Origin: Aestuariirhabdus litorea
GTDB taxonomy: Bacteria > Pseudomonadota > Gammaproteobacteria > Pseudomonadales > Aestuariirhabdaceae
Reading direction: 5' to 3'
DNA length: 64,000 nucleotides
NCBI RefSeq assembly: GCF_003864255.1
Contig: NZ_QWEZ01000001.1
Coordinates: 186,001-250,000 of the forward strand
In this document: positions 5,401-57,583 of the stretch, one piece after another
Layout: the number at the start of each line of letters is the position of its first letter
Position numbering within the stretch: position 1 is the first letter of the stretch
The notes under the pieces: generated by a model
The model's input: the letters and a program-made list of their open reading frames with translations, nothing else
What the model was told of the DNA's origin: nothing
Database searches by the model: none
Program-made: the position numbers and the translations under genes

Positions 5401-6840
5401 ATGACCGATATTCTGGATACCGCTAAGGAGCGTTTGCTACTGCCGACCGGGCTGTCGGAGCACCACCTTCAAGGGGTGCTCGATAGCATGCTGGGCCGTA
5501 ATCTGGATGCCGCCGATCTCTATTTCCAAAACTCGCGCCACGAGTCCTGGGTGCTGGATGACGGTATCGTACGCGAGGGTAGTTTTAACGTGGACGGCGG
5601 TGTCGGGGTGCGGGCGATTAGCGGGGAGAAGACCGGTTTCGCCTACTCCAACGAGATTGTGCTGCCTGCCCTGCAGCAGGCCGCCGGGGCGGCGCGCAGC
5701 ATCGCGGCCCAGGGTCAGCAGCGGCAGGTATCGGTATGGCGTCGAAGCCAACCCCTGGACCTGTACGCGCCCGCCAACCCCCTTGATTCCATTGCCCAGC
5801 AGGACAAGGTGGATCTGCTGAAGCGTCTGGATGCGGAGGCCCGGGCGCTGGATCCGCGCATTAAAAAGGTGACCGTGGGGCTCTCCGGTTTGTTTGAAAC
5901 CATCCTGGTGATGGCCAGTGACGGTACCCTGGCCGCCGATGTCCGCCCCCTGGTACGCCTCAACGTCAGTGTCATCGCCGAGCAGGAGGGGCGTCGGGAG
6001 CGAGGTTCGAGTGGTGGCGGTGGACGCTGCAGCTATGAGTATTTCCTGCAGGAAGGCAGAGCTTCGCAGTATGCCAGGGAGGCGGTACGCCAGGCGCTGG
6101 TGAACCTGGAAGCGGTCCCAGCACCGGCCGGTGCCATGCCGGTGGTGCTGGGGCCTGGTTGGTCCGGGGTGTTGCTTCATGAAGCGGTAGGACACGGCCT
6201 GGAGGGAGACTTCAATCGCAAGGGCAGCTCGGCCTACGCCGGGCGCATCGGCGAGCAGGTGGCCTCGTCGCTCTGTACCATCGTCGATGACGGTACCCTG
6301 GCCGGTCGCCGGGGCTCCCTGAATATGGACGATGAGGGGACCCCGACCGAGTGCACCATGCTGATCGAGAAGGGGATCCTCAAGGGCTATATGCAGGACA
6401 AGCTCAATGCCCGCCTCAGCGGTGGTGCCTCCACCGGCAATGGTCGGCGCGAGTCCTATTCACACCTGCCGATGCCGCGCATGACCAATACCTATATGCT
6501 GGCCGGGCAGAGCGATCCCGCAGAGATCATCGCCTCGGTCGAGCGCGGGATCTATACCGCCCACCTCGGGGGCGGCCAGGTCGACATCACCTCGGGCAAG
6601 TTTGTCTTCTCCACCAGTGAGGCCTACCTGATCGAAAAGGGACGCATCACGACGCCCATCAAGGGGGCCACCCTGATTGGCAATGGCCCTGAAGCGATGA
6701 ATCGGGTCAGTATGGTCGGCAATGACCTGGAGCTGGATACCGGTATCGGCGTGTGCGGTAAGGAGGGTCAGTCGGTACCGGTGGGGGTCGGCCAGCCCAC
6801 CCTGAAGATCGACGAGCTGACCGTCGGCGGGACCGGCTGA
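5401..6840 (+). CDS. tldD: Metalloprotease subunit TldD
   Basis: TldD is the catalytic subunit of the TldD/TldE (PmbA) zinc metalloprotease, which processes microcin-type peptides and helps degrade the CcdA antitoxin in E. coli. The protein is 479 aa, and the zinc-binding HEAVGH (HExxxH) motif is at residues 260-265. The open frame continues upstream inside the nitrilase gene, but the ATG at 5401 gives the family N-terminus and an AAGAG ribosome site, so I start there. Its partner pmbA lies 725 bp downstream, with yjgA inserted in the opposite direction. Confidence 0.96.
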
Positions 6841-36078: not shown

Positions 36079-37572
36079 ATGAGTACCATTCATTTGGCTG
36101 AAGCCCACGACCAGTCTTCCGAGTCCCCCAGGATCCTGGTGTTGGGGGCCAGTGGCTACGTGGGGTCACATCTGGTCCCACGGCTGGTGGAGAGCGGTTA
36201 TCAGGTGCGGGCCGCAGGGCGTAACAGTGCGGAGCTTAAAGCCCGCTTTGGGTCCACAGTGGAGCTGTGCACCCTGGATCTGCTTCAACCCGATACACTG
36301 GCAGGGCCGTTGGAGGGGGTAGAGGTTGTCTACTACCTGGTCCACTCGATGCTGAGCGGCGATGATTTTGCGGCCCGGGATCTGCGTGCGGCCCGTATCC
36401 TTGCTGCGGCCGCAGAGCAGGCGGAAGTCGGTCTGATTGTTTACCTGGGTGCTGCCTGCCCCGACAACACCCGCTCTGAGCACCTGATTTCACGGCGTGA
36501 GACCGGTGCGGCCCTGGCATCAGGTGCGGTACCGGTGGTCGAACTGAGGGCTCCGGTGGTGGTGGGTGCCGGCTCGGTGCCCTTCGAAGCCATTCGCGAT
36601 ATGGTCAACCATCTGCCGGCCATGGTGCTGCCGATGGCGGTGCGCCATACCAGCGCTCCTCTGGCGCTGGGCAACCTGCTCTACTACCTGGTGGCCCTGG
36701 CGGGCAAGCGCTCGATTAAGCCCGGCGTCTACCTGCTGGCGGGCCCCGAAAGGCTGAGCTACGAGGAGCAGATCCATCGTTATGCCAGGGTGGTTGGCAA
36801 ACGCTTTTATACCCTGCGGATTCCCGGGTTATGGTTAGGCCTGGTGCGCCTGGCAATGCCGCTATTCAGCTCCGCCCCCTCGTCCATCGTGCGGGCTCTG
36901 TTGGGAGGGCTGAGTGACCACATGCCCTCCAACGCTGAGGCGATCCGCGAGTGCTTGCCCCAGCGGTTGCTGAGTTACGAGGAGGCGGTCAGTGAAGCGA
37001 TAGAGGAGGAGAGCCGGCAGCCGGGTTCGCTCTATTGGTATCAGGGTAATCCCCGTTTTCGCGAGGGGTGGCCCAATGCGGCCTATTACGGAGACTGTTT
37101 AGTGATAGCGCGGGAAACGGCGTTGCCTGCCAGCGCCCTGTGGCGGGTATTGAGTCGTATCGGTGGCCGCCAGCGCTTTTTTACTATGAACGGAATCTGG
37201 GCCATACGGGAGTGGATCGACTTCTGTGTCGGCGGGCCGGGCCGACAACTCGGGCGGGATACCCCCGATCGCCTGGTGGTGGGAGAGCGGGTAGACTCCT
37301 GGCAGATTCTGGATGTGGTCGATGAACAGCGGGTTCTCCTTGGGTTTCGGATGAGGGGACCGGGTGCCGGTACCCTCGAGTTTCGCCTGCAGCCCCTGGC
37401 GGGGGGAGGCACCGAGATTCAGATGCTCGCCTATTGGCATCCAGCCGGACTCTGGGGGCAGCTTTACTGGTACACCATGATGCGCCCCCACAGTTTCCTG
37501 TTCCGGCGCATGTTGAAGGCGATCGAACGCATCGCTCGGGCGGAATTGAAGGGGACGCCAGCCCGCCCTTAA
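36079..37572 (+). CDS. NAD(P)-binding oxidoreductase with C-terminal DUF2867 domain
   Basis: This 497-aa two-domain protein has an N-terminal atypical short-chain dehydrogenase fold with the nucleotide motif VLGASGYVGSHL (GxxGxxG, near residues 22-33) and YYLVHSMLSGDDFAARD, followed by a DUF2867 domain (about residues 335-490, FFTMNGIWAIREWIDFCVGG onward). The substrate is unknown. Related proteins are annotated as complex I NDUFA9-like or YbjT-like. The next gene, on the same strand 82 bp downstream, encodes a winged-helix regulator. Confidence 0.85.
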   Translation: MSTIHLAEAHDQSSESPRILVLGASGYVGSHLVPRLVESGYQVRAAGRNSAELKARFGSTVELCTLDLLQPDTLAGPLEGVEVVYYLVHSMLSGDDFAARDLRAARILAAAAEQAEVGLIVYLGAACPDNTRSEHLISRRETGAALASGAVPVVELRAPVVVGAGSVPFEAIRDMVNHLPAMVLPMAVRHTSAPLALGNLLYYLVALAGKRSIKPGVYLLAGPERLSYEEQIHRYARVVGKRFYTLRIPGLWLGLVRLAMPLFSSAPSSIVRALLGGLSDHMPSNAEAIRECLPQRLLSYEEAVSEAIEEESRQPGSLYWYQGNPRFREGWPNAAYYGDCLVIARETALPASALWRVLSRIGGRQRFFTMNGIWAIREWIDFCVGGPGRQLGRDTPDRLVVGERVDSWQILDVVDEQRVLLGFRMRGPGAGTLEFRLQPLAGGGTEIQMLAYWHPAGLWGQLYWYTMMRPHSFLFRRMLKAIERIARAELKGTPARP

Positions 37573-39202: not shown

Positions 39203-39347
39203 ATCGCCATAAAACCTCCATGGAAAGCCCCGATAATGGCCAAGGTCGGGCGGCGGGAGTGAAGTAGCCTGTCTCCATGTTCTGGAGATAAGCATTTCAG
39301 CTTAATCCTTAGCAATATTTCTACAGAGCATTATCGCCAAACAGTAT

Positions 39348-39406
39348 TAGTTTGATAGTTTTATAGTTTGACACTAATCGAAATGAGGTATAGTTTTATA
39401 GTTGTC
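39348..39406 (+). repeat. Tandem octamer repeats TAGTTTGA/TAGTTTTA over a promoter
   Basis: Three perfect back-to-back 8-mers (TAGTTTGA, TAGTTTTA, TAGTTTGA at 39348, 39356 and 39364) are followed after 19 bp by two more (TAGTTTTA, TAGTTGTC at 39391 and 39399). Seen another way, the 14-mer ATAGTTTTATAGTT occurs twice, 35 bp apart (39355 and 39390). The array is AT-rich against a GC-rich background and covers the promoter of the small membrane-protein gene at 39439, so it looks like an iterated operator. The nearby ArsR-family regulator is the obvious candidate to bind it. Confidence 0.75.
39368..39394 (+). promoter_or_regulatory. Candidate sigma-70 promoter embedded in the octamer repeats
   Basis: A consensus -35 TTGACA (39368-39373) overlaps the third octamer, and TATAGT (39389-39394) overlaps the fourth, with a 15-bp spacer; ATAGTT one base later gives 16. 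The predicted start near 39401 is about 38 bp before the ATG at 39439, which has a CGGAGG ribosome site. Repeats overlapping both hexamers imply repression by whatever binds them. Confidence 0.55.
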
Positions 39407-39438
39407 GAAACATAAAATAGCAATCCACGGAGGATTCT

Positions 39439-39753
39439 ATGAAAACCAAGCTCGCAATCAATATCTTCTACCTGGCCCTCTATGCCGGCTTTAACGGTCT
39501 GGTCTGGCTGCTGTTTCAACAGATTCCCTTCAGCGTGGCCGCACAGTTCCTGGCAGCACCGCTGGTCATCATGGTTGGGGCAGTGCTGATCTACCTGCCC
39601 TATGAGAGCGCGCTAAAAAAGCTGGAAGCGTCTTCGCAGCCGCTAGATGAAACGGCCACCGTCGTCACCCTAGCCGCTGCGCGCACCAGCAAAGTCCAGC
39701 GTCCTGCCGCAACCGTAGCCGGTGCAGCCCCTGCGTCGCTGGCCGCTCATTGA
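39439..39753 (+). CDS. Small two-helix membrane protein, paralog of the 40394 gene
   Basis: This 104-aa protein of unknown function has two predicted membrane helices (about residues 7-27 and 34-53) and a polar Ala/Thr-rich C-terminal tail (about 55-104). Its first 60 residues align without gaps to the gene at 40394: both read MK-x-L-x-x-(N/D)-I-F-L-x-L-F/Y-x-GF, then WLL(F/Y)(Q/K)Q(I/V)P, then QF-x-x-APL. No catalytic or metal motif is visible. The start has a strong GGAGG site. It is followed 13 bp later by an ArsR-family regulator and preceded by the octamer operator, so it is likely autoregulated with that gene. Confidence 0.8.
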   Translation: MKTKLAINIFYLALYAGFNGLVWLLFQQIPFSVAAQFLAAPLVIMVGAVLIYLPYESALKKLEASSQPLDETATVVTLAAARTSKVQRPAATVAGAAPASLAAH

Positions 39754-39766
39754 GCGAGGGTGGGAG

Positions 39767-40168
39767 ATGACACTTAATCAAGGGGCGTTTACTATGCAAG
39801 TTGATCGGTCCGAGGAGATTGTTTTGAATACCCATCAGCTTGCCAAGGCATTTAAAGCCCTGTCCAATGAAAACCGCCTGGCTATCTATCTGGAGATCCT
39901 GCGCCACCGTGAGGGGCTGTTGAAGCCCGATGCCCCTCAGTGCGGTGGCGGTTGTATGTTGGCCGATATCATCAGCTCCCTCAATATTGGTGCCCCAACG
40001 GTGTCGCACCACATGAAGGAGTTGATTAATGCCGACCTGATAGAGGTTGAGAAACAGGGCAAGTTTCTACTCTGTCGTATCAATGCCGACACCCAGCTCG
40101 AGCTGGAGCAGTTTTTCTCCCTCTCCGGGCAGATTCAGCTGGAGTCGGAACTAACCCCGGCGCGCTAG
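39767..40168 (+). CDS. ArsR-family transcriptional regulator with Cys-rich loop
   Basis: This is a 133-aa winged-helix repressor of the ArsR/SmtB class. The core runs from LAKAFKALSNENRLAIYLEIL through LNIGAPTVSHHMKELINADLIEVEKQGKFLLCRI. The recognition helix is APTVSHHMKEL. The loop before it contains PQCGGGCMLADI: two cysteines three residues apart, placed where other ArsR members bind metals or sense sulfane or redox signals. A third cysteine is in FLLCRI. The inducer cannot be told. I use the ATG at 39767; the ATG at 39794, with AAGGGG 8 nt upstream, is an equally good start. It is flanked by two paralogous membrane-protein genes. Confidence 0.88.
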   Translation: MTLNQGAFTMQVDRSEEIVLNTHQLAKAFKALSNENRLAIYLEILRHREGLLKPDAPQCGGGCMLADIISSLNIGAPTVSHHMKELINADLIEVEKQGKFLLCRINADTQLELEQFFSLSGQIQLESELTPAR

Positions 40169-40325
40169 TTTTCCTCTCCTGAAGTGCAGTGTTTTCCGCA
40201 TCGGCAGCAGCACCCATGGGGCTTTTGATGAGTTGCTGAAGCGGGCGTGCGCTGGCCTTTCGGTGGCGATATCGTGAGAGCGACTTTCCACTTGCAGCTA
40301 ATCCCAAAACGGTCTTGGCTGTTTA

Positions 40326-40339
40326 TTGATCTGGATCAA
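40326..40339. promoter_or_regulatory. Consensus FNR/Anr box upstream of the second small membrane-protein gene
   Basis: TTGAT-CTGG-ATCAA is a perfect match to the FNR/Anr consensus TTGAT-N4-ATCAA, centred 61 bp before the ATG at 40394. A TGATAAC stretch follows at 40354-40360 as a possible -10. This suggests induction or repression at low oxygen. Confidence 0.75.
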
Positions 40340-40393
40340 TGATCGGCGTAGTGTGATAACTCATCCAAGCCATTCGACCGCAGGGAGTTAAGC

Positions 40394-40735
40394 ATGAAAA
40401 AGGATCTGTTAGTCGACATTATATTTTTGAGTTTGTTTACCGGCTTTGGTGCCCTGCTCTGGCTCCTGTATAAGCAGGTGCCGATGAGTTTTCCCCACCA
40501 GTTTATGACCGCGCCCCTGCTCCTGTTACTCGGGGCCAGCCTGCTCTATTACAGCAGTGTGCAGCTGGCAAACTCGCTGGGAGTCGTAGCCCAGGGGCTA
40601 TCGGATGCGATCTATCGAGTGGGAGGTACCCTGCCCGGTGCCATGCTGCTCGATCGTCGCCATGAGAACCGGGGATTACCCACCGGGTCAGCCGGGCATC
40701 CCATCCAGGAGCGTCGTCACTCGATGATGACCTGA
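40394..40735 (+). CDS. Small two-helix membrane protein, paralog of the 39439 gene
   Basis: This 113-aa protein of unknown function has two predicted membrane helices (about residues 7-27 and 34-55) and a longer polar, arginine/histidine-containing tail that ends HSMMT. It is clearly homologous to the 104-aa protein at 39439 across the membrane part, with divergent tails, so the locus arose by duplication around the ArsR gene. The ATG follows a CAGGGAG site. A perfect FNR/Anr box lies upstream, unlike the octamer operator of its paralog, so the copies appear to be under different control. Confidence 0.8.
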   Translation: MKKDLLVDIIFLSLFTGFGALLWLLYKQVPMSFPHQFMTAPLLLLLGASLLYYSSVQLANSLGVVAQGLSDAIYRVGGTLPGAMLLDRRHENRGLPTGSAGHPIQERRHSMMT

Positions 40736-56331: not shown

Positions 56332-56396
56332 GTAAAAAAGGCGGGGCGGGTCACTGCTCGCCAAACCGGCGGCCTGTGGCACTCTCGAGTGTTGTT

Positions 56397-56410
56397 TTGA
56401 TATTTATCAA
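56397..56410. promoter_or_regulatory. Consensus FNR/Anr box upstream of the diguanylate cyclase
   Basis: TTGAT-ATTT-ATCAA matches the FNR/Anr consensus exactly, centred 70 bp before the GTG start at 56474. A candidate -10, TACACT, is at 56440-56445. It is also about 130 bp upstream of liuR on the other side, but that gene has its own promoter nearer. Confidence 0.7.
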
Positions 56411-56473
56411 ATGGAGGCGTCGGTGAGCCGTTTGCGGTGTACACTAACAGCGAAGCCTTGAGGGAGCGAAGGC

Positions 56474-57583
56474 GTGCGGCGGATACTTTATGCATGGTGG
56501 TTACGGGGGAGCCTGATTGGCGCCCGCGGCCTCGCATCGCCCGCTCGGGAACGGGTGGTGGTGATCAACCAGTTTATGTTGCTGGTGCTGTTGGTGACCC
56601 TGGCGTATCAGATGCTCTACCTGTTGACCGATGCCGAGCGCATGCGCCCGGTGATGATGGTGCACGGCCTCAGTATTCTTGGTTTTCTGCTGGCCCTGCT
56701 GGCCAACTACCGCCGTCACTACCTCAGCGCGGCCCTGCTCTCCCTTGGGGTGCCGATGATGATCCAGGTGCCGGGGGTCACTTACATGATCAGTGCCGAC
56801 TCGGGGATGCACCTGTTTCTGCTCAGTAGCGGTGTGCTCACCTTCCTGGTCTTTTCCAACCAGCTGCGCTGGCTGCGCTACCTGTTCCTGGTGGTGTCGA
56901 CCCTTCTGTTCGTGCTGCTCGATAGTTTCTGTACCCCCGAGATCGCAGCGGTCACACTGCCCGCTGAGCAGCTGCGGGTGATGTTTCTGTTGAACCTGGT
57001 CAGTTTTGTGTTGCTGCTCTATGCCCTCTCCACCCTGTTCCATGGGCAGCTGATATTGCAAGGCGGTCGCATCGAGCGCCAGGCTCGGGACCTGGCCCAT
57101 CTGGCCAATACCGACCTGTTAACCCAGCTGCCCAACCGGCGCCGCATTATTACCGAGGCGCAGCGCAGCGGGCTCTTTCAGGGGGTGGTGGCGATTGCCG
57201 ACATCGACCACTTCAAGGCGGTCAACGACCGCTACGGTCATGCCTGCGGCGACGCCATCCTGCAGAAGGTAGCGCAGGTGCTGCAACACTCGATACGGGA
57301 GGTGGACCGGGTCGGGCGCTGGGGGGGAGAGGAGTTTATTTTCCTGCTCAGCTACAGCTCCGCGGAGGAGGCGTTGCGGGTGCTGGAGCGGGTGCGCGAG
57401 CAGGTGGAGGCGACCGAGGTCCAGTTTGAAGGGCATGCGTTTCGCGTCACCATCTCCATCGGCATGGCGGTGATGGATGCCGAACGCAGCTTCGATGAGG
57501 CGTTGCGCGAAGCCGACAACGCGCTTTATCGGGGTAAGCGCCAGGGACGTAACTGCGTGGTGACCGAAGCGATCGCTTACTGA
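56474..57583 (+). CDS. Membrane-bound diguanylate cyclase (GGDEF domain)
   Basis: This enzyme makes the second messenger cyclic di-GMP. The 369-aa protein has an N-terminal membrane part with about five helices (residues 30-200) and a C-terminal GGDEF domain with an active site GGEEF (WGGEEFIFLL). An inhibitory I-site RxxD (REVD) lies five residues before it, so product inhibition is likely. The sensor part has no recognisable ligand motif. The GTG at 56474 follows AGGGAG. A perfect FNR/Anr box upstream suggests control by oxygen. Confidence 0.92.
   Translation: MRRILYAWWLRGSLIGARGLASPARERVVVINQFMLLVLLVTLAYQMLYLLTDAERMRPVMMVHGLSILGFLLALLANYRRHYLSAALLSLGVPMMIQVPGVTYMISADSGMHLFLLSSGVLTFLVFSNQLRWLRYLFLVVSTLLFVLLDSFCTPEIAAVTLPAEQLRVMFLLNLVSFVLLLYALSTLFHGQLILQGGRIERQARDLAHLANTDLLTQLPNRRRIITEAQRSGLFQGVVAIADIDHFKAVNDRYGHACGDAILQKVAQVLQHSIREVDRVGRWGGEEFIFLLSYSSAEEALRVLERVREQVEATEVQFEGHAFRVTISIGMAVMDAERSFDEALREADNALYRGKRQGRNCVVTEAIAY

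Follow-up and report, generated by a model that had tools for sequence, protein, structure and literature searches.

We identified in Aestuariirhabdus litorea an ArsR-type gene and an adjoining gene for a small membrane protein, TM1, that would form a single operon under the control of its own ArsR product. The segment analyzed, referred to below as the window, is a stretch of 64,000 nucleotides (G000:C1:186001-250000) in a genome of 3.66 Mb. On balance, and with limited confidence, we favor a reading in which the TM1-ArsR operon is autoregulated and answers to a thiol-type inducer, TM1 acts with a neighboring regulator combining an OmpR-type winged helix with TPR repeats, and a TM1 paralogue, TM2, is controlled by FNR. 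In this scheme an ArsR dimer would repress transcription by binding two tandem palindromes spread over the −35-like motif and the −10/start region. The inducer would probably be an oxidant or electrophile that reacts with thiols, here those of C54 and C94 in ArsR, and derepression would lead to more TM1 in the inner membrane. Once there, we would guess from an adjacency conserved within one genus, TM1 most likely serves as membrane partner or modulator of the soluble winged-helix/TPR regulator. TM2 would be an extra copy moved to oxygen control of the FNR type, as one box upstream of it suggests.

Table 1. Features of the TM1-ArsR region, in window coordinates.
Feature	Position	Strand	Basis and remarks
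Regulator with N-terminal OmpR-type winged helix and TPR repeats, 515 aa	37655..39202	+	Trans_reg_C 51.8 bits, TPR matches (Pfam)
Weak third operator-like copy	39345..39372	+	10.6 bits, below highest null value (11.1)
Predicted operator site A	39361..39388, core 39365-39384	+	26.9 bits; kept in G001 and G002
Predicted operator site B	39388..39415, core 39392-39411	+	30.4 bits; kept in G001 and G002
TM1, 104 aa, putative two-helix membrane hairpin, orphan family	39439..39753	+	Open reading frame
ArsR-type repressor (predicted)	39767..40168	+	Start ATG 39767 or 39794; HTH_20 and HTH_5 matches, structure model
Perfect FNR/Anr box TTGATCTGGATCAA	40326-40339	+	5′ of TM2; ends 54 bases before the start codon
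TM2, 113 aa, TM1 paralogue	40394..40735	+	Open reading frame; present in 1 of 3 genus genomes

The frames of 104 and 113 codons on either side of the ArsR-type gene, pointed out in a preliminary description of this DNA, were confirmed as open. The layout drawn there, two paralogues around an ArsR gene, is correct for these genes but left out the TPR regulator. Three genomes of the genus were compared (the window genome, G001 and G002), and of their five TM copies all except TM2 have this regulator or a homologue of it directly 5′. The order regulator-TM-ArsR is kept in all three genomes and is followed in G001 and G002 by a convergent YaaA gene. Within this unit, the products of G001 and G002 share 77-78% identity with the window proteins for ArsR, 50-56% for the regulator and 27-40% for TM. 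Regulator homologues with 45-56% identity lie directly 5′ of TM genes at three further places in two genomes. In a tree of ArsR relatives based on few columns and showing long branches, the three genus ArsRs formed one group. Since the frame between the two candidate ArsR start codons is maintained in G001 and G002, translation may begin at ATG 39767 instead of 39794; residue numbers used here (C50, C54, C94) are counted from the latter. In G002 the TM stop codon abuts the longest ArsR frame. A gene for an NAD(P)-binding/DUF2867 protein (36079-37572) lies 5′ of the TPR regulator, an order also seen in G001.

The two membrane protein genes had been credited with separate upstream controls, an array of octamers for TM1 and an FNR box for TM2. 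The box is perfect; the octamers (39345-39415) are best read not as an array but as parts of two 20-bp palindromes at a distance of 27 bp, with a weaker copy preceding them. The palindromic operator thus defined, about aTTCGATAnnTATCGAAt, is present as two tandem copies over the TM1-ArsR promoter. A −35-like TTGACA (39368-39373) lies inside site A, and a −10-like TATAGT (39389-39394) lies at the start of site B; with one site over the −35-like motif and the other over the −10/start region, this is the layout that would suit a dimeric, self-blocking repressor. The stretch TTGACA, 15 nt, TATAGT is conserved in the regulator-TM gap of all three genomes, as is the pair of sites 27 bp apart. A consensus promoter scan did not call the TM1-ArsR promoter (−35/−10 spacing of 15 nt). 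At the place of the weak third copy, G001 reaches 2.7 bits and G002 19.4.

This element is also present in the promoters of ArsR relatives, where it forms a dyad of roughly AGTTYGATANNTRTCRAACT. When regions of about −300 to +100 were scanned, a match with three mismatches at most was found in 60 of 79 promoters from named genomes outside the genus (L157 left out), as opposed to 3 of 395 mononucleotide-shuffled regions. A matrix built from those 60 promoters placed the site at 39388 first in the 64-kb window (30.4 bits), the one at 39361 second (26.9) and a site at 56390-56417 third (24.4), followed by the overlapping copy at 39345 (10.6) and a next value of 3.5; the consensus had been drawn up with the window repeats in view, so that this test is largely, not wholly, independent. 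Maxima in 30 first-order Markov sequences averaged 4.0 and reached 11.1 at the highest. Of 19 loci examined outside the genus (L023, where an operator-like site precedes an Old Yellow Enzyme (OYE) gene, left out), 14 have two sites, and 10 of these repeat the 27-bp spacing; it also recurs in 9 of the 18 two-site promoters among the 79, a count made with a uniform background on genomes that overlap with the 19-locus set. In the whole genome, the operator pattern with one mismatch at most matched two sites, both at the TM1 promoter, and the reversed control none; with up to three mismatches, none of the three genomes showed enrichment of the pattern over its reversed control. The conservation of the operators at its own promoter argues strongly that ArsR very probably represses TM1-ArsR. 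Further targets in the genome are possible, since the one-mismatch pattern misses the 56390 site and the matrix scan covered the 64-kb window. That site also contains a perfect FNR box, TTGATATTTATCAA (56397-56410), just 5′ of an ORF (56474-57583) which, by reading, we take to be GGDEF-like.

The ArsR protein exceeds the cut-offs of HTH_20 (28.8 bits; cut-off 27) and HTH_5 (23 bits; cut-off 22) and was modelled with an ArsR fold, which places it in the ArsR/SmtB superfamily. The model, made from 46 sequences (pLDDT 75, pTM 0.70; residues 44-51 below pLDDT 50), comprises helix 26-39, strand 53-55, helix 56-62, recognition helix 67-79, wing strand 91-96 and helix 98-109, and a fold search with it returned general ArsR proteins as PDB neighbors. 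The CGGGC loop, said in the preliminary description to precede the recognition helix, is placed by the model before helix 3, with C54 in strand 53-55 and C94 in the wing strand. The first cysteine of the loop, C50, is unconserved among relatives. C54 and C94 are invariant in 23 of 23 sequences of a first set; in the named set of 80, C54 occurs in 73, C94 in 72 and both in 65. Some cysteine lies between −5 and +2 of position 54 in all 80, and six of the seven relatives without C54 are from Paenibacillus, with the cysteine one place on. All eight relatives that lack C94 have alanine there, and a disulfide between C54 and C94 can therefore not be general in the group. Strands like 53-55 and the wing strand pair in winged-helix folds, and for this reason the two thiols may be close together. 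The cysteine pair of persulfide sensors, in helices 2 and 5, is absent, C54 and C94 falling outside helices 26-39 and 98-109.

Relatives of this ArsR are widespread in Gammaproteobacteria, Firmicutes and other groups. Within the order, a profile of five ArsRs matched in 30 genomes out of 390, which represent 13 of 142 genera. Twenty-three of these genomes were inspected, comprising the window, G001, G002 and 20 loci outside the genus; the latter have in the adjoining or same gene run an OYE-type gene in 12 cases, an SDR gene in 3 and a serine hydrolase gene in 5. In named genomes the scan turned up 380 relatives, and among the best 80 of these a gene for an OYE, SDR, KPR, serine hydrolase or flavodoxin/ferredoxin lies within 1.5 kb in 52; the OYE gene accounts for 15, and 27 have none of the neighbor types searched. 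Seven of the 80 (L157, L158, L161, L173, L174, L185 and L194) repeat genomes already covered and were kept in the counts. Neighbor labels came from BLAST to reference proteins first named by reading; eight representatives were checked against Pfam, with matches over the cut-offs to Oxidored_FMN (two), adh_short, Beta-lactamase, ApbA, Fer4 and Lactamase_B_2. The neighbors to which Pfam gives Fer4 and Lactamase_B_2 we take to be EFR1 and UlaG, respectively. In Clostridium, Desulfosporosinus and Sporomusa (L189, L182, L195, L163 and similar loci) the ArsR relative is followed by such an EFR1-like gene for a flavodoxin/ferredoxin, and the operator there often resembles TTCGATAnTTATCGAA; a gene of this type lies within 1.5 kb in 17 of the 80 loci. 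One archaeal relative, L236, falls among Clostridium in the tree and may reflect transfer or contamination. In Aestuariirhabdus itself (window, G001, G002) there is no OYE gene beside ArsR. The best OYE match has 35% identity in the window genome, whereas the top four of G001 and G002 reach 42-50%. No site above 12.0 bits was found near the 8 OYE-like matches whose surroundings were scanned, out of 13 listed for the three genomes. In the absence of an operator near these OYE-like matches, the TM operon is, as judged from these scans, the only clear ArsR target in this genus.

Both the conservation of the cysteines and the redox-enzyme neighbors of the relatives speak, with moderate force, for thiol or redox sensing as more likely than metal sensing. 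The alternative of a metalloregulator, whose CGGGC dithiol would bind a metal or metalloid and whose membrane proteins would be export or envelope parts, appears decidedly unlikely. It draws on the ArsR fold and on the best NCBIfam profile being that of a metalloregulator subfamily, NF033788, which also matches all 46 sampled relatives at E ≤ 0.001 (one at 6e-19), some of which may pass its cut-off; the window protein scores 51.2 bits against a cut-off of 55 and exceeds no NCBIfam cut-off. Moreover, 18 of the 80 relatives, including a congener, have a CxC ending at C54, which favors a metal or dithiol site in some of these proteins, and the nearest solved chains by sequence include Lmo1102, CzrA, SmtB and an As(III)-type ArsR. 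However, 62 of the 80 relatives have no CxC there, the window itself has CxxxC with an unconserved first cysteine, and its model is devoid of the metal-type CxC in helix 3 (56-62). The motif of ars-type ArsR proteins is CVCDL; in an alignment by eye, the CxC of the present group lies three residues farther from the helix-3 Asp. In addition, no metal transporter was recognized when the neighbors of the window gene and the 20 loci outside the genus were read through. The compact envelope or redox/metal response unit proposed in the preliminary description thus survives in part: the operator, the gene order in three of three genomes and the unnamed membrane proteins agree with it and a redox role fits neighbors and cysteines, but metals are less supported and TM2 falls outside the unit.

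TM1 and TM2 share 46% identity across 41 residues (E 3e-14, two-sequence test), rather than the common first 60 residues claimed for them; their tails diverge, as described. Neither belongs to a Pfam or NCBIfam family, in line with the statement that no function could be recognized. Transmembrane helices were predicted by hydropathy and from a low-confidence model of TM1 (pLDDT 61; helices 2-28 and 33-65, tail poorly modelled) that was too poor for the fold search, carried out with the ArsR model only. By its charges (N-in/C-in), TM1 is probably a helical hairpin of the inner membrane with both ends cytoplasmic. It evolves fast, with 24-41% identity to its relatives as against the 77-78% among the genus ArsRs. 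A profile of the family matched the 3 genus genomes among 390 of the order, another 11 genomes giving E values of 0.006-0.05; in 369 genomes of the class, the matches at E ≤ 0.01 were the window genome and two weak ones (5e-4, and 7e-4 with four stops). The match at 5e-4, L237, is a two-helix ORF of 91 aa that may or may not be akin to TM1. Peptide patterns in genome contigs gave 295 stretches, none confirmed as TM1, and nothing convincing came from outside the genus in the order and class profile searches or, for plasmids, by tblastn. At the sensitivity used, the hairpin family of TM1 and TM2 appears to be an orphan one confined to Aestuariirhabdus. No TM1 counterpart was seen beside 11 of the 19 TPR-regulator matches outside the genus. 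Two loci, L117 and L118, have 5′ of the regulator a short ORF whose product contains two hydrophobic stretches; judged by eye, it is unlike TM1 and was set aside.

Whether the membrane proteins travel with ArsR genes, a question raised in the preliminary description, received a split answer. Three of the five TM copies are followed by the window-type ArsR, but no TM1/TM2 homologue was found in 79 of the 80 named loci (blastp at 1e-8, at most 4 kb on each side); the one locus with the TPR/TM set, L157, is G002. The same description had named TM homologues without any ArsR neighbor, together with unchanged expression in a regulator mutant, as evidence against a common unit, and the first of these is found in part at L022 of G002: a second regulator-TM pair lies there without window-type ArsR, and a different ArsR gene, paired with a permease gene ending 164 bp from TM, is 1.2 kb away.

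The narrow distribution of the family, with weak matches outside its 3 genomes, and the divergence of the tails could mean that ArsR autoregulation is real and that TM1 and TM2 are fast-evolving passengers with no part in a redox response. We consider this unlikely, because TM-ArsR order and promoter element are kept in all three genomes, with abutting frames in G002, and because the regulator-TM pairing is retained at a second place, L022. A further alternative assigns the octamers to the TPR regulator instead of ArsR, with TM1 as its target. OmpR-type proteins often bind direct repeats, and the position of this regulator directly 5′ of four of the five TM copies would suit such a role. The dyads, however, are common to ArsR promoters in other phyla, and a regulator of this kind near the 80 loci, outside the genus's own, is represented by one weak partial match (L219). 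Furthermore, the dyads are missing at the regulator-TM pair without window-type ArsR, the gap at L022 containing nothing above 4.9 bits. These points make the assignment very improbable and leave ArsR as the presumptive ligand of the operator. At L022 the TPR gene and the TM gene each have a CTTATAAGAATCA-like sequence 5′ of them (L022:3700-3994 and 5575-5800), which is a possible site for the TPR regulator.

The closest described analogues, compared by description, appear to be CyeR and PyeR. CyeR, a redox regulator of the ArsR family in Corynebacterium glutamicum, acts on cye1, which codes for an Old Yellow Enzyme, and its inactivation is reported to rely on a cysteine at the position of RexT Cys41, a second cysteine lying seven residues away (PMC8960804). 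Like CyeR, the window protein is of ArsR type and a share of its relatives have an OYE neighbor; unlike CyeR, it has its second conserved cysteine in the wing (C94) and a membrane protein, not an OYE, as predicted target. PyeR of Pseudomonas aeruginosa is reported as an ArsR-family autorepressor of pyeRM-xenB, an operon with an MFS protein and a xenobiotic reductase that is upregulated by HOCl and whose deletion mutant is HOCl-sensitive (PMC7950407). The predicted autorepression and the presence of a membrane protein in the operon recall the present case, whereas the operon of PyeR includes a transporter and a reductase. RexT, the H2O2 sensor of Nostoc, has a helix-3 cysteine that touches wing residues (PMC8960804) and belongs to cluster 6 of the ArsR sequence similarity network (SSN; PMC10509353). 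It differs from the window ArsR by its vicinal Cys40-Cys41 disulfide and its trxA2 target, and RexT (7txm) scored only E 0.28 against the profile of the window ArsR subfamily. The persulfide sensors SqrR, BigR and HlyU form SSN cluster 4 and share ArsR fold and dithiol logic (PMC10509353); they carry the cysteines in helices 2 and 5, the window protein before helix 3 and in the wing.

Among open-licence PMC papers, no title dealing with the operator of this ArsR subfamily or with TM1 was found. We tentatively suggest, as an idea more doubtful than probable, that these proteins constitute a widespread unnamed subfamily of thiol-switch ArsR regulators, with a helix-3/wing cysteine pair and a deeply conserved palindromic operator, which governs flavin and Fe-S redox enzymes from Firmicutes to Gammaproteobacteria and has been rewired in Aestuariirhabdus to a lineage-specific membrane hairpin coupling redox state to a winged-helix/TPR regulator. 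What is gained is a testable regulon: an operator, a set of relatives (best 80 of 380 examined), two cysteines as candidate sensors and, in this genome, one clear target. If the suggestion is right, the operator should mark inducible genes under an uncharacterized redox regulator in many Gammaproteobacteria as well as in Clostridium, Desulfosporosinus and Paenibacillus, and the TM1 operon would exemplify how a new gene can take the place of the targets that such a regulator usually has.

TM2 has no counterpart at the matching place in G001 or G002 and, by this comparison, is a species-specific extra copy outside the conserved TPR-TM-ArsR unit. Its FNR box is one of two perfect ones in the window (0.01 expected); the pattern TTGAYN4RTCAA found no box in L020, L021 or L022. 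Six candidates out of 11 Crp/Fnr-type matches in the genome were inspected, and two of them have CxxCx5C. Read by eye against a possible extended −10 motif, the box lies near −34 and not at the classic −41.5, so that activation and repression are both possible. Its likeness to the ArsR consensus made it a candidate ArsR operator, which was rejected, the best score in the region upstream of TM2 being −9.2 bits. Between YaaA and PhoH, G001 and G002 encode a further small protein with two helices and the motif WEFSxxxQYLxFP (L020:8339-8638 and L021:5985-6296); in the window this gap is too small to accommodate it. Compared with the TM family by hhalign, the protein gave a probability of 76% (E 2e-5) and is possibly a distant TM paralogue.
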